Shown piece after piece: positions 3,649 through 23,670 of a stretch of DNA of 23,670 nucleotides. Location: IMG/VR virus record IMGVR_UViG_3300032006_000086, positions 1 to 23,670 of that record, one strand, 5' to 3'. The translations under genes were made by a program, and so were the position numbers. Every line of letters begins with the position of its first letter. Within the stretch, counting starts at the first letter, position 1. Under the pieces are notes generated by a model. That model saw nothing but the letters and a program-made list of their open reading frames with translations. It did not search any database and was not told where the DNA came from. The DNA comes from a virus.

Positions 3649-6600
3649 ATGCCTCTGATTAACTCTTCGGTATCTAACCTCATCCAAGGCGTCTCTCAGC
3701 AGCCTGATGCGGTACGCTTTCCCGGCCAATGCGCCGAGCAAGAGAACGCCTTGTCGAGCGTTGTGGATGGCTTACAGAAGCGTCCAGCTACTCAGCACGT
3801 TGCTACCCTGCTAACTGAAGTTGCTTTAGATGCTAATGCTAAGGTTCACTTTATCGAAAGGGATAATAATGAGCGGTATGTTGTTATTATTAAAGGCACG
3901 GACAATAAGACAATTTCGGCCTATAATCTAACTACAGGAAAGCAAACGAGAATAGACCAGAAATACAGAGGACTGGTAAACTCCTTTACAATAACAAACG
4001 ACGACGCAGGAGCGCCGAGTAGCGCTGACATAGAAATAACTACACAGTGCCCTTTAGTTATAGCCGCCAATGATGATGGAACTACACCAGTGGGGACTTT
4101 AAAGGTTGTAGGTGGTGGGTGGACTAGCGCTAAACGCTACAACTTAATGGCAGTGGGGGATGGAGAAGACAAAAATATACTCAAAATAGAGAGCCTAGAA
4201 GATGGTATAACACTCTTTGATACGACAAAAGGAGAGCTACAGAGCGTCATAGAATACACTATAACAGGGACGAACTCTGACTTAGTTTTAGATAGCGATA
4301 GTTACCTTACTGATAACAGTGGAGAAGGAGTAGCTACTCTTTCCGTTACTCCTACAGTACCTAAAGACGACCTTAGCTTGATGACTACTGGGGATGTCAC
4401 CTATGTACTGAATACGAAAAAACCCGTAAGCAAAGACCCTATATCTAAAACTAGGCCACTAGACAAAAGCGCTTTAGTATTTATCAAGCAGGGAGACTAC
4501 GAAAAGAAATACGGAGTGCGTATCAACATAGACGGAGATGCTAATTCTCCCCACGAGCATCACTGGTATTCAGGAGCGTCCCAAAGGAAAGCTGATGGTA
4601 AATTCTTTAACACAGCTAAGAACGCGCAAGCAGACACTATATTGGCAGGGTTATTTAGCAATGACACAGAAACGGTTTATGATGCACAAGGCGAGCTTGA
4701 GCACACCGAAGCGGTTGGGACTAATAATGGATTAGGGAACCTTAACGCTAATGGGTTCACCGCCGACCTATTAGCTCCACAGATAGGTAAGATAACAGGA
4801 CCTGACTCACCTAACTGGACAATACATCCGGTAGATAGCATGGGAGGAGAAGGGGTAGGCGTGGTTCATAAGTCAGTCACAGCTCTCACAGACCTCCCAA
4901 CTGTGGCTCCCCATAGGTATAAAGTAGAAATCGCAGGGGACCTAGAGGAGCAAACAGACAATAGGTATGTCCAGTTTCTTACTGCGGGTTCCGATGAAAC
5001 CACCCCTGATGGAGAAATAGGGCAAGGCAGCTGGTATGAAATCGGAGGGGCAAATATTCCTAACCATTTTAACATTAACACGATGCCCTTGATGCTCAGG
5101 AGCACAGCTGAAAATGTGTTTGAGCTTGGGCATATGCCTTTAGATGGGCTACTGGCTGGAGACGATAATACCAACCCAGACCCTTCTTTTGTGGGAAGCA
5201 CGATAACTGGGGTATTCTCTTTTAAAGGAAGACTTGGATTTCTTTCTGGGGCTTCAGTTAGTTTAACCGAAGTTAAGTTCGGCTCTTATGATGCTCTTAA
5301 TGACATCCAGCATTACAACTTCTACAGGATGTCCGTAGCTTCGTTGTTAGATAACGACACAATCGACGTTACGGTTTCTTCAGCTCATGTAGTTAACCTA
5401 ATGAGTGCAGTTCCTTTTCAGGACAACCTTGTGATGTTCTCTGAATTTGGGCAGTTCGTCTTACGAGGGGGAGACCTTCTTACTATTAAGACTGTATCAG
5501 CAAACCCTATTACCGAGTATGAGTGCGACAGCTCCGTTGCTCCAGTATCTCTAGGCTCTTATATTTATTTTCCTTTCAGAAGGGGAAGTTTCACGGGAGT
5601 TAGAGAGTTTACCATGACCGTCGATAGGGACGTGTATGACGCTAACGAAGTCACTTCTCACGTTCCTCAGTATATTCCCACGAACTTAGTGGCGATGTCA
5701 GGCGCGGCTTCTGAGGAACTACTCGCCCTGACTGATGGGACGGACGTTTACATTTATAAGTATTTCTTCAGCGGTAACGAAAAGATTCTTAGCTCATGGA
5801 GTAAGTTTACTATTAGCGGGGGAGGAATCAGGGGCCTATGTTTCGTAGACGCTGACTTGTTTATCGTTCAGGCGGTAAAGGGGCAGACGCATCTGTTGAA
5901 GATGCCTTTGGAGAACAAATACAGAGACCCCTCTGGGTTCAACACACACCTAGACCGCAGGGTAGAGCGTGAGTTTAAGGCAGACGCTACTGAGCCGACT
6001 ATTGTTGTCCCTTATCTCTTAGCTGAGGGCGAGACCTTTGAAGTGTATACTAAGGACGGGCTATTACTCCAGAACACTAAGACTACGGTAGATGGTTCTT
6101 CCACCCTAATTACTTTTAAAGATGGAGTAGTATCTGGAGGCGTACCCGTGACGCTAGACCTAGCAACATCCGGCCTAACCCCCTCAAGTTTTCCTGCTGG
6201 TTCAGAAACAGGGCTTGATTTGGACACCGGGCTTTGGACGCAGACGCTAAGCGTAACTAATAACGGTTCAGAAACAGTTCCGTCCTTTAACATTTTTGTT
6301 ACGGGGCTACCCGCTGGTGTGACGCTGTATAACGCTGATGGAGAATATGGAGGCCGCAGCTTTATAACGAACAATACACCCTTAGCGGCGGGAGCTACCA
6401 TCGCTGGTCTGACCCTTAAATACTTTCAACCGGACACCTCTGGAGGGTTTACCCCTCAGTTTAGTTTAGGTGTCCCCGGTAATGAAGTGTATGTTGGTAT
6501 TCCTTACTTAATGAAGTACACCTTTTCAGAGCAATTCTTTGGAGCCCCTTCTGGAGATAAGCTTAGCCCGACAAACGTGGGCAGAAAGCTAATCAGGAAT

Positions 6601-19680: not shown

Positions 19681-21342
19681 ATGGAAGTCCCAGATAAGCT
19701 GAAAGACTTTCGCAATTTTCTATACATAGTATGGAAAGAGCTTAACCTACCAGACCCAACTACTATTCAATATGAAATCGCTGATTACATGCAAAAAGGA
19801 GATAGACGAGCTATTATCGAAGGCTTTAGGGGAGTCGGTAAAAGTTGGATATGCTCTGCATTCGTTGTCCACCAGCTCTTGCTCGACCCAAGAAGAAACA
19901 TCCTTGTTGTCTCTGCGTCAAAAACAAGAGCAGACGATTTCAGCACTTTTACACTTAGACTCATCCATGAGTTGCCTCTTCTCGCTCATTTGCGACCAAG
20001 TGAAAAACAAAGATTCTCTAAAATCAGCTTTGACGTCGGACCCGCGCCAGCCTCCCACGCCCCCTCCGTCAAATCCTTGGGAGTCACGTCTCAACTGACG
20101 GGCTCACGGGCTGACATCATCGTCGCAGACGACATTGAGGTGGTGGGCAATAGCGCCACCCAAGGGATGCGCGACAAGCTTGGCGAACAGGTCAAGGAGT
20201 TCGACGCAATCATCAAGCCCGATACTGACTCCAAGATATTGTTCCTTGGAACACCACAGTGCGAGGACACAATCTACAACAAGCTCACTGAGCGGGGATA
20301 CAAAAAACGCATTTGGCCTGCTAAATACATCACAGAAAAGGTCAATGAGACTGGGTATGACGGGTGTGTTAGTGAGTTGTGTGTTGATGAGAGCAGGGTA
20401 GGGGCCACCACAGAGCCCCTGAGGTTTTCTGACATCGACCTAGCGGAGCGAGAAGCGTCCTACGGGCGCACCGGGTTCGCCATGCAGTTCATGCTGGATA
20501 CCCGCCTGAGCGACATCGAGAGGTTCCCGCTGAAGACCAGCGACCTCATAGTGATGTCTGTGGACCCCGAGGTGGCTCCTGAGAAGCTTGTGTGGGCCAG
20601 AGACCCTAAACTGGAGTGGGACTCCTCTGTGCCCAATGTGGCGCTCTCAGGGGACAGATTCTACCGCCCTATGGAAGTCCTTGGGGACTACATCCCATAC
20701 ACAGGCTCTGTGATGGCTATCGACCCCTCAGGACGGGGCAAGGATGAGACCGGATACGCCATCGTCAAGATGCTCAATGGATACCTCTACGTGGTAGATG
20801 CCGGGGGTCTCCAAGGCGGATATAGCGACGAGGTCCTCAAGGCCCTTTCAATAAAGGCCAAACAACAGAAAGTGAACTTCATCGTGGTCGAAAGTAACTT
20901 CGGGGACGGGATGTTCGTGGAGCTTTTCAAGCCCATCCTTACCAAGATTCACCCATGCACCATCGAGGAAGTCAGACACAACATCCAGAAAGAGAAAAGA
21001 ATCATCGATACCCTAGAACCCGTGATGAACCAGCACAGGCTGGTGGTTGACCCGAAAGTCATACAACATGACTATGAAAGCGCACAGACGTATCCGCTAG
21101 AATCACAGCTGAAATACCAGCTAATCTACCAGATGTCCCGCTTAACGAACCAAAGAGGGGCCATTACGCAGGATGACCGCCTTGATGCACTCAGTATGGC
21201 GGTCGCATATTGGACAGAACAGATGGCTCAGGACGCTGATAAGCGCATGAATGAGCGTAAAGTAGACCTTCTAGACGAGGAATTAAGGCGATTTGAGGAG
21301 TCCTACACGGGTAAATCAAGCCTACAAACCACTTGGATGTGA
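19681..21342 (+). CDS. Large terminase subunit, ATPase and nuclease (T7 gp19-like)
   Basis: The 553-aa packaging motor is near T7 gp19 in length (586 aa). Motifs in order are Walker A GFRGVGKSW at residues 48-56 (Lys54) and Walker B IIVADD with Asp150/Asp151. The C-terminal RNase H-like nuclease has AIDPSGRGKDETGYA with Asp348, VVESNFGDG with Glu404, and QDDRLDAL with Asp498/Asp502. The ATPase translocates DNA into the procapsid and the nuclease cuts concatemers at genome ends. It lies at the end of the late region, as in T7. A phage using this terminase type would be expected to have direct terminal repeats; the window alone does not show them. Confidence 0.95.
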   Translation: MEVPDKLKDFRNFLYIVWKELNLPDPTTIQYEIADYMQKGDRRAIIEGFRGVGKSWICSAFVVHQLLLDPRRNILVVSASKTRADDFSTFTLRLIHELPLLAHLRPSEKQRFSKISFDVGPAPASHAPSVKSLGVTSQLTGSRADIIVADDIEVVGNSATQGMRDKLGEQVKEFDAIIKPDTDSKILFLGTPQCEDTIYNKLTERGYKKRIWPAKYITEKVNETGYDGCVSELCVDESRVGATTEPLRFSDIDLAEREASYGRTGFAMQFMLDTRLSDIERFPLKTSDLIVMSVDPEVAPEKLVWARDPKLEWDSSVPNVALSGDRFYRPMEVLGDYIPYTGSVMAIDPSGRGKDETGYAIVKMLNGYLYVVDAGGLQGGYSDEVLKALSIKAKQQKVNFIVVESNFGDGMFVELFKPILTKIHPCTIEEVRHNIQKEKRIIDTLEPVMNQHRLVVDPKVIQHDYESAQTYPLESQLKYQLIYQMSRLTNQRGAITQDDRLDALSMAVAYWTEQMAQDADKRMNERKVDLLDEELRRFEESYTGKSSLQTTWM

Positions 21343-21346
21343 GAAA

Positions 21347-21661
21347 ATGGCCACTATACAACCCCCAAACCATATCAATGTGGCTGGTATACGCATCCCA
21401 GTCCACATTAAAGAAGAAATGCCGGGTCGTCTCGCTGAGTATGACCCCGAAATGCGGTGCATAAACATCCACGTTAGCGTCCTAAGGGACCGACAGCTGT
21501 TCAGAGCTACGCTAGTTCACGAAGTGATCCATTGTGCCCTCGACTTGGCTGGCATATCGTTCAACACAAGCAGAGTCCTTTCTGAAAAAATAGAAGAACA
21601 GGTGGTCTCAGCAGTAGAGAGCCTAGCCGCTCCAGCCATTATAAGGGTGTGGAGGTTGTAA
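21347..21661 (+). CDS. Small HExxH metallopeptidase-like protein
   Basis: A 104-aa soluble protein with a zinc-peptidase motif HEVIH at residues 58-62 in a helix (TLVHEVIHCALDLAG). A following acidic helix (EKIEEQVVSAVESL, about 80-93) could supply the third ligand, probably Glu83 or Glu84. The arrangement is like small SprT- or ImmA/IrrE-type phage proteins of unknown target. It starts 4 bases after the large terminase stop. The frame is open upstream of 21347, but that part lies inside the terminase gene. T7 has no equivalent. Possible roles are late proteolysis of a host or virion protein, or a structural zinc protein. Confidence 0.75.
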   Translation: MATIQPPNHINVAGIRIPVHIKEEMPGRLAEYDPEMRCINIHVSVLRDRQLFRATLVHEVIHCALDLAGISFNTSRVLSEKIEEQVVSAVESLAAPAIIRVWRL

Positions 21662-21685
21662 GAGAGGGCATATATGGAGACCGGG

Positions 21686-21721
21686 GGACGCTCTAAGTAC
21701 ACTTAGAGTTGTCCTACGGAC
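21686..21721 (+). promoter_or_regulatory. Hairpin with mutually exclusive pairings downstream of the metallopeptidase gene
   Basis: An 8-bp stem, CTCTAAGT (21691-21698) with ACTTAGAG (21701-21708), is flanked by GGAC (21686-21689) and GTCC (21711-21714), which can extend it. The same GTCC can instead pair with GGAC at 21718-21721 in a 3-base-loop hairpin, so two folds compete. There is no T-tract, so it is not a standard terminator. It may be an RNA processing site, a regulatory fold or an operator. Confidence 0.45.
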
Positions 21722-21732
21722 AATAATAACAA

Positions 21733-21786
21733 TCCACCTATAATGGATGTGGAATGTGAGTTATAAGTGGTTATTAGCACTTATAA
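21733..21786 (+). promoter_or_regulatory. AT-rich region with TATAAT and a 9-bp inverted repeat
   Basis: A perfect TATAAT lies at 21739-21744, inside a small hairpin (TCCAC 21733-21737 with GTGGA 21749-21753). No convincing -35 box is at the usual distance, so the promoter call is weak. Just downstream is a perfect 9-bp inverted repeat, TTATAAGTG (21761-21769) and CACTTATAA (21778-21786), with an 8-base spacer. It is operator-like in form, with no T-run after it. Confidence 0.35.
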
Positions 21787-21841
21787 GCCCACCAACAGCG
21801 CACTCATAGTGTAACCCTGAGTACCCCTTGTCAAACATAAA

Positions 21842-21913
21842 ATGAAAAGACGTTTCAGACGCCAAGTGCGCTCCAGACAAAGGAGGCGCAGAGTAGCCAA
21901 AAAAGACTTTTGA
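21842..21913 (+). CDS. Possible 23-aa arginine-rich peptide
   Basis: A short open frame from ATG 21842 to TGA 21911-21913 encodes MKRRFRRQVRSRQRRRRVAK plus three residues, with 11 of 23 residues Arg or Lys in the first two thirds alone. The composition recalls tiny nucleic-acid-binding packaging peptides of small phages. There is no clear ribosome binding site, and a run this short could be chance. It is listed because no other gene occupies 21662-22019. Confidence 0.25.
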   Translation: MKRRFRRQVRSRQRRRRVAKKDF

Positions 21914-21976
21914 GCTTGTCCGTAGACAGGTTCTACCTACGTTTTGTTGCGTGTTGTGTGTTGTGTGTAACGCAAA

Positions 21977-22009
21977 GTCCCTTGGCCCTCTCAACGAGGG
22001 CTGAGGGGC
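21977..22009 (+). promoter_or_regulatory. 14-bp hairpin covering the RBS of the next small gene
   Basis: Positions 21977-21990 pair with 21996-22009 around the loop TCAAC, giving 14 continuous pairs including three G-U wobbles in RNA. The core is GCCCTC with GAGGGC. The right arm contains GAGGGG (22003-22008), the SD-like sequence for the GTG start at 22020. No T-run follows. Upstream at 21947-21967 are three 7-base tandem units (TTGCGTG, TTGTGTG, TTGTGTG). The hairpin could gate translation of the downstream pair of small genes. Confidence 0.55.
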
Positions 22010-22019
22010 AACGCTTCCA

Positions 22020-22208
22020 GTGAAACCAATGGGCTCTAAAAGAGGTAAATACGACAAAGGACGAGACCGAACTAACAGGAAACCCGACTACCTACGTGGT
22101 CTCTCCTCTTCGGTCAACAAAGCGTGTGACGACTGGCTCAGGAAAAAGGGACTAAAAGCTCTTAGCTGGAAAGAGCAACTCAAAGGGAAGCAAAATGAAG
22201 GTCATTGA
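22020..22208 (+). CDS. Small basic protein of unknown function
   Basis: A 62-aa, Lys/Arg-rich soluble protein beginning MKPMGSKRGKYDKGRDR. It has a central SSVNKACDDWLRKKGLKAL helix and a charged tail. I do not recognise a family. Start choice: GTG at 22020 has GAGGGG 11 bases upstream; the ATG at 22029 (59 aa) lies too far from that site. It overlaps the next small gene by 14 bases, so the two are probably translated together. The position after the terminase region corresponds to where T7 has its small gene 19.5. Confidence 0.55.
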   Translation: MKPMGSKRGKYDKGRDRTNRKPDYLRGLSSSVNKACDDWLRKKGLKALSWKEQLKGKQNEGH

Positions 22209-22362
22209 TGTCTCAAAATACTGGGGTCAAATACAGACCATCAGCAAAAGGGCTGTTATCAAGAGCACCTTGGAGAAGCTCTCTGAACACCTAGAGGGAG
22301 ATGAGAAAGCTACAGGCTTGCTCAAGGAACTCAGGGCCCTTTGTTTAGGTGAAAATATCTGA
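22195..22362 (+). CDS. 55-aa protein of unknown function
   Basis: The ATG at 22195 has a good ribosome binding site (AAGGGAAG a few bases upstream) and lies within the end of the preceding gene in another frame. The 55-aa product is soluble and mostly helical, with a hydrophobic/charged pattern in KSTLEKLSEHLEGDEKATG and LLKELRALCLG. It has no recognised motif. RBS and overlap make it a credible gene; it is the last one before the non-coding region. Confidence 0.6.
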   Translation: MKVIDVSKYWGQIQTISKRAVIKSTLEKLSEHLEGDEKATGLLKELRALCLGENI

Positions 22363-22502
22363 GAGGGTAACGCTCTAGCGTGATTAGGGGCCGCCCCCCA
22401 TACCCCCCGTCCGCTGCCGGAATCCACCTCGCTCTCCTCGCTCCTCCGCGCCAGACCGTAGGCATTACTTGCCTCCTCCGCGCTGGGACGCACAGGGACC
22501 GC

Positions 22503-22551
22503 CCAATGCGCGCCCTTGGACGGGCTTAAAGTGGCGCATTGGAAGAGCCCG
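22503..22551 (+). ncRNA. Possible H-type pseudoknot
   Basis: A perfect 9-bp helix joins CCAATGCGC (22503-22511) and GCGCATTGG (22534-22542). CGGGCT in its loop (22521-22526) can pair with AGCCCG just outside (22546-22551), giving an H-type pseudoknot with connecting loops of 9, 7 and 3 bases. An alternative local pairing inside the loop (GCCC 22512-22515 with GGGC 22522-22525) would compete with the second helix. The 3-base loop is tight for a 9-bp helix, so the two helices might alternate instead. Confidence 0.45.
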
Positions 22552-22768
22552 TTGCCTCTCCTAAGCGCAGCCTTGGGGTGGTTCGCGTGTGATTGATTGT
22601 GCTGGCGTTTTTTACTATCACGCACCTAGATACCTCTGGGGCCTTCAGCCGGACGCTTGCTCAGCGGGAGCCAAGGAATGTCCTTGGATGCCTTTGTCTT
22701 GAGTCCGTGTTGCGCTGCCGTGTGGCCCAGCCACCCGGAGTCGCACAACAAGTCCACAAGACGGGCTC

Positions 22769-22789
22769 AGTGGATGCAGTAGCTCCACT
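22769..22789 (+). repeat. Hairpin with repeated 13-base core, copy 1
   Basis: The core GATGCAGTAGCTC (22773-22785) sits between AGTG and CACT, forming a 6-bp stem (GA/TC pairs included) with loop TGCAGTAGC. The identical core recurs at 23340-23352 between different but equally complementary flanks. The loop contains the palindrome TGCA, which could allow loop-loop pairing. Confidence 0.65.
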
Positions 22790-22805
22790 AAGCAGCCAGT
22801 GAGGC

Positions 22806-22866
22806 CTCCAGCCGGGTGCGACTTGCGACACGCTTCGCGCAAGGGAGAAGGCGCTGGGGTTTTTTT
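22806..22866 (+). terminator. Terminator-like stem with T-tract
   Basis: CTCCAGC (22806-22812) pairs with GCTGGGG (22853-22859), 7 bp with one wobble, around a 40-base loop that contains a CTTGCG/CGCAAG hairpin. Seven T follow at 22860-22866. The large loop makes it less typical than the capsid terminator. It could end transcription from the late operon or an upstream non-coding RNA. Confidence 0.4.
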
Positions 22867-23048
22867 CTGCTGCTGGTTTCCTCATTGGGATTCACTGCGT
22901 TCACCCACACATGGCGACAAGGGCAAGGCGTCAGGTCCAACAACTCCGTCGCTGCGCTCCTTCAACAAATTCCTCATAAGCAAATTGGCGGTCATGCCAA
23001 TTCACTTATTTCCTCATTTCTTGGAGCTTGTTGGCTGACACTCTCCCA

Positions 23049-23100
23049 TATTTTTGGTTGTTGTAGTTAGCGCTACGCGGCTATTGATGAATCAAAAATA
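23049..23100 (+). repeat. Structured element A (helix plus inner hairpin with bulged A)
   Basis: The outer helix pairs 23049-23059 (TATTTTTGGTT) with 23090-23100 (AATCAAAAATA), 11 bp with one G-U. The inner hairpin is TAGTT, bulged A at 23069, GCG, loop CTA, CGC, GGCTA (23064-23083). Element B repeats the same design with different bases. Confidence 0.65.
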
Positions 23101-23178
23101 GGGGGCCCGACCCTTGCGCCCCGTCCCAACTCTGTTGCCCCTTTTTGTCCGTCTCATGCCCCACTTAGGAGTCTAATC

Positions 23179-23270
23179 GAGCAGCAGTGTAACCGTCGTT
23201 TTTTTGCCTGTGTAGTAGTTAGGCGCTGCGCGCCGACTATCATTAGGCAAAAATAACTTGGTGGCTGCTC
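23179..23270 (+). repeat. Structured element B (same design as element A, longer closing stem)
   Basis: GAGCAGC (23179-23185) pairs with GCTGCTC (23264-23270), and ACC/GGT adds three pairs inside. The T/A-rich helix is TTTTTGCCT (23201-23209) with AGGCAAAAA (23245-23253). The inner hairpin is TAGTT, bulged A at 23221, GGCGC, loop TGC, GCGCC, GACTA (23216-23239). It matches element A in arrangement, including the bulged A. Confidence 0.65.
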
Positions 23271-23278
23271 TCAGCAGA

Positions 23279-23451
23279 GTGTCGCTTTTTGAAGGCTCTA
23301 TGAAGCACAGCTTAACGCGCTTGATGCAGAAAGTACACAGATGCAGTAGCTCTGTGTTCTTTCCGCCCAGCTAAAAGATGTCTCGCGACAAATCTTTTAT
23401 CTTACAAGCGCTACTGTGCTTCATGTACGAGCCTACAAAAATGGGCGACAC
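23279..23451 (+). ncRNA. Three-way-junction RNA domain
   Basis: Five stacked helical segments close the domain: GTGTCGC/GCGACAC (23279-23285 with 23445-23451), TTTTTG/CAAAAA (23286-23291 with 23436-23441), AGGCTC/GAGCCT (23293-23298 with 23429-23434), an 11-bp segment (23300-23310 with 23414-23424), and GCGCTTG/CAAGCGC (23317-23323 with 23405-23411). That is 37 pairs in total. Two hairpins branch from it: 23329-23340 with 23352-23363 (12 positions, one T-T mismatch), which carries core copy 2, and TAAAAGA/TCTTTTA plus TGTC/GACA with loop TCGC (23372-23399). It lies inside the 14-bp helix 23151-23164/23459-23472. Confidence 0.7.
23335..23357 (+). repeat. Hairpin with repeated 13-base core, copy 2
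   Basis: The core GATGCAGTAGCTC (23340-23352) sits between ACACA and TGTGT, giving a 7-bp stem with loop TGCAGTAGC. The core is identical to that at 22773-22785 while the flanking stem differs and remains paired, so the hairpin rather than the flank sequence is kept. Confidence 0.7.
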
Positions 23452-23518
23452 CTGTGGGGTGGGGCATGAGACAGGGAGGGGGCAATCCGTTGGGACTTAT
23501 GTGTAGGGTGGGAAACCT

Positions 23519-23670
23519 ATGCATCCGACTGATACATACCAAACGACAGTCTGCCCCTATTGCGGGAGCAAGACAGAGCCCGTAGGAACAACTCCAACCC
23601 TCCGCACGTTCATGGCGTGTGCCTCTATGAGTCGAGAGACTATCTTCGACTACCAACTATCATACTTAGC
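23519..23670 (+). CDS. 5' end of a small CPxC zinc-binding protein (partial)
   Basis: The frame is open from ATG 23519 to the window edge, 50 codons. It begins MHPTDTYQTT and has a CPYCG zinc-knuckle at residues 12-16, followed by GSKTEPVG. One further Cys at residue 35 (MACAS) is visible so far. An AGGGTGGG sequence 7-14 bases before the ATG can serve as RBS, but it is also the right arm of the outermost helix of the upstream structured region. Proteins with CPxCG starts are frequent among small early phage proteins. Function cannot be assigned; the rest lies outside the window. Confidence 0.5.
   Translation, partial: MHPTDTYQTTVCPYCGSKTEPVGTTPTLRTFMACASMSRETIFDYQLSYL

Follow-up and report, generated by a model that had tools for sequence, protein, structure and literature searches.

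A conserved candidate structured RNA and a lineage-specific hairpin array at the late/early junction of a marine T7-like phage

We analyzed the window, a 23,670-bp virus fragment (IMGVR_UViG_3300032006_000086), together with related contig loci, which carry L-numbers below. All nearest relatives of its terminase (19681-21342) belong to the Autographiviridae, identifying the fragment as part of a T7-like phage of that family. The nearest named phages by terminase were marine Autographiviridae of Roseobacter and Pelagibacter (CRP phages, HTVC phages and Ayaqvirus S45C18), with uncultured Ayaqvirus S45C18 (AP013544) at 74% and Roseobacter phage CRP-171 at 63%. Beyond the terminase lie an HExxH ORF, two small ORFs and then, from 22363 to 23518, a stretch of 1156 nt for which the first-pass annotation had reported no believable gene. 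We confirmed this by searching the seven ORFs of 60 aa or more that lie in this stretch or overlap it, plus the open ORF at 23519, against PHROGs and Pfam (E ≤ 0.01), which returned no match in either database. The relatives share the order of terminase, HExxH ORF, small ORFs, a gene-free 0.77-1.16 kb and early genes, and those reaching far enough to include the early genes were L085, L087, L089, L094 and L096. The features of the window are listed here; the 59-aa ORF could alternatively start at the GTG at 22020, giving 62 aa, and no relatives were found for the ORF at 23519.

21347-21661, directly after the terminase: HExxH ORF
21667..22013, + strand: E1, conserved structured non-coding element, starting with GGCATATATGGA and ending with a 14-bp hairpin
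21842..21913, + strand: predicted 23-aa arginine-rich ORF inside E1, MKRRFRRQVRSRQRRRRVAKKDF (tblastn)
22029..22208, + strand: 59-aa ORF between E1 and E2, ATG at 22029, with homologues in relatives
22195..22362, + strand: 55-aa ORF, the last gene before the 1.15-kb stretch, with homologues in L082-L087, L089, L093-L096 and L135
22343..22408, + strand: E2, conserved GGGTAACGCTCTAGCGT...CCCCCCATACCCCCC (blastn, this span in L091, a longer or partial span in L093 and L096)
22565..22613, + strand: E3, GGTGGTT...GGCGTTTTTT, terminator- or pause-like (blastn, L093, L096 and L107)
22614..22620, + strand: earliest copy of ACTATCA, a one-strand motif of the early region that recurs at 23236 and 23656
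22773..22785, + strand: GATGCAGTAGCTC, first of two copies, forming the apical part of a hairpin
23100..23518, no strand: lineage-specific nested-hairpin domain (z -13.3; 132 pairs common to the folds of both strands)
23151..23164, no strand: 5' arm of a perfect 14-bp helix, exact inverted repeat
23340..23352, + strand: GATGCAGTAGCTC again, forming the apical part of a hairpin whose basal stem differs
23459..23472, no strand: 3' arm of the perfect 14-bp helix, beyond L082, which ends at 23403
23519..23670, + strand: possible first early ORF (CPYCGS), 50 open codons, its frame cut by the end of the record

This region is a non-coding stretch leading from terminase-side genes to early genes, as a T7-like concatemer junction is. 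In the T7 concatemer, 1163 nt separate gene 19.5 from gene 0.3, compared with 1156 nt here; both phages show terminase, small gene(s), non-coding junction and early genes in succession, with a start-like motif upstream and a T-rich site downstream. In T7 the phiOR promoter precedes the terminal repeat and ATCTGTT stands directly behind it. The two junctions differ in that the T7 one contains no E1 according to our model R1 and is little structured (z -3.3), while E3 of the window lacks ATCTGTT and the E1 start motif is unlike the T7 promoter. The accessible part of a report on P-SSP7, another marine T7-like phage, gives a 206-bp terminal repeat and a 728-bp stretch ahead of ORF1 in the assembled junction and does not mention structured RNA there (PMC3350473); this likeness is one of description, not of sequence. 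By analogy with T7 and P-SSP7, where this is the place of the terminal repeat and the early leader, we take 22363-23518 to be the late/early non-coding junction. The contigs L167, L083 and L102 stop within ~50 nt of E3, which is what a physical genome end would produce; other contigs stop elsewhere, and the coincidence is suggestive only.

The first-pass annotation had drawn all of 22363-23518 as one giant ornate RNA, citing long complementary segments nested in order around a perfect 14-bp helix. The helix is exact, with GTCTCATGCCCCAC at 23151-23164 pairing with GTGGGGCATGAGAC at 23459-23472 across 308 nt. Among 500 dinucleotide shuffles each, a perfect inverted repeat this long turned up 3 times for the 1156 nt and never for 23100-23518. 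The complete stretch folded at -500.4 kcal/mol against -421.1 ± 9.9 for dinucleotide shuffles (z -8.0, 40 shuffles), 79 kcal/mol below them, and its reverse strand at -507.5 kcal/mol (z -8.3), 95 below; thirteen 800-nt controls taken from other parts of the window ranged from z +0.7 to z -3.2. This signal was confined to the last 419 nt: 23100-23518 folded at -211.6 against -138.2 ± 5.5, with none of 100 shuffles as low, and 22363-23162 was unremarkable (z -1.1). Sub-stretches of about 400 nt, each compared with 16 shuffles, agreed with this division (22363-22762, z -0.9; 22763-23162, z -2.0; 23119-23518, z -14.7). The nested helices are thus present far beyond chance in these 419 nt but not across the 1.15 kb, of which the remaining ~740 nt folded no better than shuffled sequence.

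We also considered the suggestion that the stretch is a divergent GOLLD or ROOL. GOLLD and ROOL commonly, though not universally, neighbor tRNA genes, and they assemble into homo-oligomeric nanocages; ROOL is comparable in length to E1-E3. Both are large structured phage RNAs of unknown function, and GOLLD is raised during phage lysis, according to the accessible part of one report (PMC12286853). A search of the window and ten relatives against Rfam gave no match at the gathering score, for this stretch or for E1, and neither GOLLD nor ROOL was among the five matches at E ≤ 10 for 21640-23670. Matches at the relaxed threshold were chance-like (sroD at E 0.19 and others; mir-3613 at E 0.15 in L108). 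No tRNA gene was found in the window, and blast against named phages returned no match for the region or for 218 nt of the L087 junction. Apart from the comparable length, E1-E3 is unlike GOLLD and ROOL, having no Rfam match or nearby tRNA and lying at the genome end beside the terminase.

The z-score of the complete stretch and the 308-nt helix would fit one giant RNA, of a new class or divergent from GOLLD and ROOL. We consider this very improbable, because ~740 nt carry no fold signal, the match with L087 and L089 ends at 22383, and the 419-nt domain belongs to one lineage and folds with equal stability from either strand; in addition, the conserved, stop-like E3 sits inside the proposed RNA, the fold of that RNA is not conserved and no Rfam family matches it. 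A structured RNA candidate does exist at the end of the late region, although it is a different object from the one drawn: the conserved multi-helix candidate occupies 21667-22408 (extending to 22613 if E3 is included), so that 22363-23518 contains no more than its 3' edge. This stretch is the 3' edge of a conserved junction RNA, followed by ~690 nt of largely ordinary non-coding sequence (including E3) and a young hairpin array.

The 419-nt domain folds into a long imperfect stem bearing side hairpins. Of the 162 pairs in its plus-strand fold, 132 recur in the minus-strand fold, and the composition-controlled energy difference between the strands has a z of -0.01, with neither strand preferred. 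G-U pairs in the fold numbered 15 on the plus strand and 3 on the minus strand; shuffles expect 8.0 ± 3.8 more on plus, and we kept this count only as a weak strand signal. We found one homologue, L082, which is partial. It is identical to the window for the first 480 nt and then differs in blocks that mostly coincide with hairpins, including a hairpin inserted near 23335 and deletions on both sides of the 23179-23272 stem. This single partial homologue shows both a compensatory change (a C-G to A-T double change at 23207/23247) and many plain pair breaks within 22844-22958. Searches with 24- and 26-base patterns for further homologues of this domain, or of that in L087 and L089, returned only contigs already known.

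L087 and L089 have flanks ~91% identical to the window, yet their blastn match with it stops at 22383, beyond which only E3 still resembles the window (seen with L083). Their gaps are 79% alike, with long identical blocks interrupted by swapped hairpins. In the window, two hairpins share the tip GATGCAGTAGCTC on different basal stems, and in L087 two hairpins share a basal stem with different tips. Structured gaps occupy the same place in L085, L087, L089, L093, L094 and L096 (z -4.5 to -7.2), with other sets of hairpins, and were not found in L114 (z -0.4) or, in 250-nt scans, in L103, L110 and L162. The 419-nt domain is structured but not conserved in sequence, and it is limited to a single lineage.

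A domain unselected as RNA could arise at a hotspot, by fold-back template switching or by mobile palindromes nesting in a tolerant non-coding stretch, and we regard this as a serious possibility, though with the balance somewhat against it. It would fit the equal stability of the strands, the pairs common to both folds, changes that consist of block swaps and hairpin insertions, the hairpin pairs with exchanged tips or stems, and the unstructured gaps of the more distant L103, L110, L114 and L162. A neutral process, however, need not maintain structured gaps at one place in six other close relatives, and 15 G-U against ~1-3 A-C pairs in the fold of the window is a weak sign of RNA. It is also possible, if doubtful, that the domain serves as a structured 5' leader of the first early mRNA, perhaps one processed by RNase III or resistant to RNase, whose function depends on pairing and not on sequence. 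In favor of a leader, the domain ends at the ATG of 23519, and L087, L089, L085 and L094 also have stretches rich in hairpins ahead of their first early gene; the compensatory change at 23207/23247 and the two-sided deletions in the 23179-23272 stem count for it too, and in T7 one 400-nt stretch a little upstream of gene 0.3 reaches z -5.1. Set against the leader are the missing strand preference, the single partial homologue, an ORF at 23519 that is cut off and has no relatives, and a search for sigma70-like promoters between 22363 and 23100 that found none. Selection on pairing and mutational growth of hairpins each explain the domain, and they are not separable here.

A scan of the surroundings gave a second folding signal at 21663-22028 (z -4.8 on plus), where E1 lies. 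Of 35 related loci, 34 have the E1 start motif behind the HExxH gene, and the exception (L097) ends 169 nt past that gene; left out before these 35 were L090 and L104, whose contigs end at the HExxH gene, and L149 and L154-L156, which had weak HExxH matches. Model R1, whose seed includes the window, scores the E1 of the window at 187.6 bits. We assessed covariation in an alignment of 30 sequences (A2, without L088 and L099, which are too short, and without L084 and L113). Helix 2 (CTCTRAG/CTYAGAG) had two-sided changes at 4 of 7 pairs with 100% of cells paired, and these sequences, like the ten used below, are relatives whose cell counts are not independent events. The whole structure scored 0.245, against 0.136 ± 0.012 for shuffles and at most 0.091 for slid structures. 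The hairpin at the 3' end of E1 was present in 31 of 34 loci as 13 distinct stems, the other three loci being L088 and L099 (too short) and L098 (anchor missed). Among the 149 pairs of 11 typed stems (those of L114 and L135 omitted), 30 were G-U, and A-C was absent from the anchored part, which fits plus-strand RNA and not a DNA hairpin.

Folding energies of E1 were moderate, with z from -1.6 to -5.8 on the plus strand across 16 loci and often similar values on the minus strand. Consensus folds as a test of strand gave a mixed outcome: the minus strand was slightly better for the 30-sequence 5' part in A2 (-11.66 vs -9.65), and the plus strand was favored for an alignment of ten compact relatives, A4 (-54.5 vs -43.8). 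In L100-L105 the whole stem of hairpin 2 is inverted (CTTAGAG...CTCTAAG for CTCTAAG...CTTAGAG), with all pairs kept.

Model R1 recognized no E1 in 5 of 8 records, namely AP013544, CRP-171 and HTVC134P, which differ from the window in this respect, as well as T7 and the L120 contig. Since E1 is absent or unrecognizable there, it does not serve T7-like phages in general as a packaging part. Weak R1 matches occurred right after the terminase in L124, L125, L130 and L133 (E 0.04-0.84), and three of these four begin with a similar GAGGTATATATG; they hint at a wider E1 family and were not counted as members.

Some loci carry ORFs or inserts in or beside E1. The 23-aa ORF was found by tblastn at E ≤ 2e-5 in the window, L082, L083, L087, L089 and L091, far more weakly in L092 (E 1.2), and by alignment it is absent from the compact relatives; in the group of the window, L087 and L091, arginine makes up 10 of the 23 residues of this predicted ORF. 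Between E1 and the small ORFs, L096 has an extra 60-aa ORF that begins with hydrophobic residues (MKAMTLTETLVVLLISMVLSLC...), and L094 has a similar insert. In L091, L092 and L098 a different coding-looking insert separates the HExxH ORF from E1.

Pattern searches located the E2 motif in 23 of 34 loci; for E3 the count was 22 of 34, with L085 in addition, and none was found in L110, though this contig extends far enough. In relatives without the two small genes, E1-E3 forms a single non-coding unit of 549-571 nt (L100, L101, L102, L105, L108 and L127), compared with 937 in the window, where two ORFs intervene. The consensus fold of ten such compact relatives contained 72 pairs. Two-sided changes affected 13 of these, where shuffles gave 8.3 ± 1.7, and the score was 0.207, compared with 0.140 ± 0.008 for shuffles and no more than 0.077 for slid structures. 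In the closing helix of this fold, GGGG near the start of E1 pairs with CCCC in E2; in the window, pairing between E1 and E2 would need to bridge two ORFs. Compensatory changes across homologues, the mark of a conserved structured RNA, were thus found for E1/E2. In the accessible parts of the literature on GOLLD/ROOL, RNA of marine Autographiviridae, structured phage RNA, the T7 right end and ACTATCA, we found no description of E1.

E1, E2 and E3 might instead be DNA signals, such as terminase binding sites, a terminal repeat or a replication start. Their position beside the terminase at the genome end would suit such signals, as would the strongly conserved ATATAT and GAATGTG outside the main stems, and the wholly inverted hairpin 2 stem of the L100 group is permitted for a DNA hairpin. 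The 3' stems of E1, however, show G-U rather than A-C, several helices carry compensatory changes, and the elements extend over ~550 nt; we therefore regard a DNA-only role as unlikely.

We also compared E3 with known transcription stop sites. Class II sites of phage RNA polymerase are described, in the accessible part of one report, as unstructured, found at concatemer junctions and in need of a downstream T-run (PMC11617373). E3 has a T-run (22608-22613 in the window), though the strict ATCTGTT is missing from it in all 34 loci, and we do not claim membership of this class. L094 has ATTTGTT at this place, and L110-L115 have an exact or near copy of ATCTGTT inside E1. Intrinsic (rho-independent) terminators have a GC-rich hairpin immediately upstream of a T-run; by eye, L085 has CGTCT/AGACG ahead of TTTTTT, a pairing that is not conserved in the window or in L100, and a terminator scan of the window did not list E3.

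Taken together, we think it probable that the junction holds two unrelated things, a conserved plus-strand RNA (E1-E3) and a hairpin array, and that the transcript of the former aids concatemer processing. Late transcription would start at the promoter-like GGBATATATGGA (21667), a putative counterpart of T7 phiOR. The E1 transcript would fold into several helices, with GGGG near its start and CCCC in E2 closing it over a long range. It would then pause or stop at E3, which may serve as a weakly structured site for a single-subunit RNA polymerase beside the genome end, and this pausing would help the terminase to process the concatemer. As the positions of the E1 start and of E3 match the places of phiOR and ATCTGTT in T7, a transcript ending or pausing at E3 is the most economical proposal. 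The 419-nt array would be a young element ahead of the first early ORF that changes by exchanging whole hairpins, most likely carried in the early leader transcript and having no conserved fold of its own. In a bolder reading, E1-E2-E3 would represent a new class of large RNA (~0.4-0.55 kb), made at the genome end of marine T7-like phages and taking a direct part in cutting or packaging the concatemer, which would make it a packaging RNA in phages that are not known to have one; the array would be a rapidly evolving element that shields the entering end or is processed there. This reading seems quite unlikely to us.

The conserved RNA (E1-E3) is the part worth following. It lies beside the terminase in dozens of marine T7-like contigs and has no Rfam family. 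If it acts through its transcript as we propose, a genome-end process so far attributed to DNA sites and proteins would gain an RNA part. The E1 alignment and model R1 make this testable in any isolate carrying E1. The locus also illustrates that a spectacular fold in a single sequence may be young and unconserved while a modest neighbor carries the evolutionary signal.

Finally, we noted a short motif, ACTATCA, that is mostly followed by T or C and is strongly enriched on the coding strand in early regions. Across L085, L087, L089, L093, L094, L096, L103, L110 and L114 it occurred 53 times on plus and 0 times on minus in the early region, and 0 times in the late parts; over all 20 loci examined the counts were 75 and 8, the 8 falling in L144-L147. 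The first 22.6 kb of the window contain none. We tried the motif as a promoter and found, over 128 sites, no conserved letters in the 50 bases before it or the ~20 after it except the next T/C. It could act as a Chi-like, RNA processing or antitermination signal. Among other repeats, the L092 junction has two similar GC-rich stretches around GCTCCGCTCACTATCACT, at 5516 and 5764, and the junction of L125, a more distant relative, contains a run of ATCGATA-type repeats at ~2380-2520.
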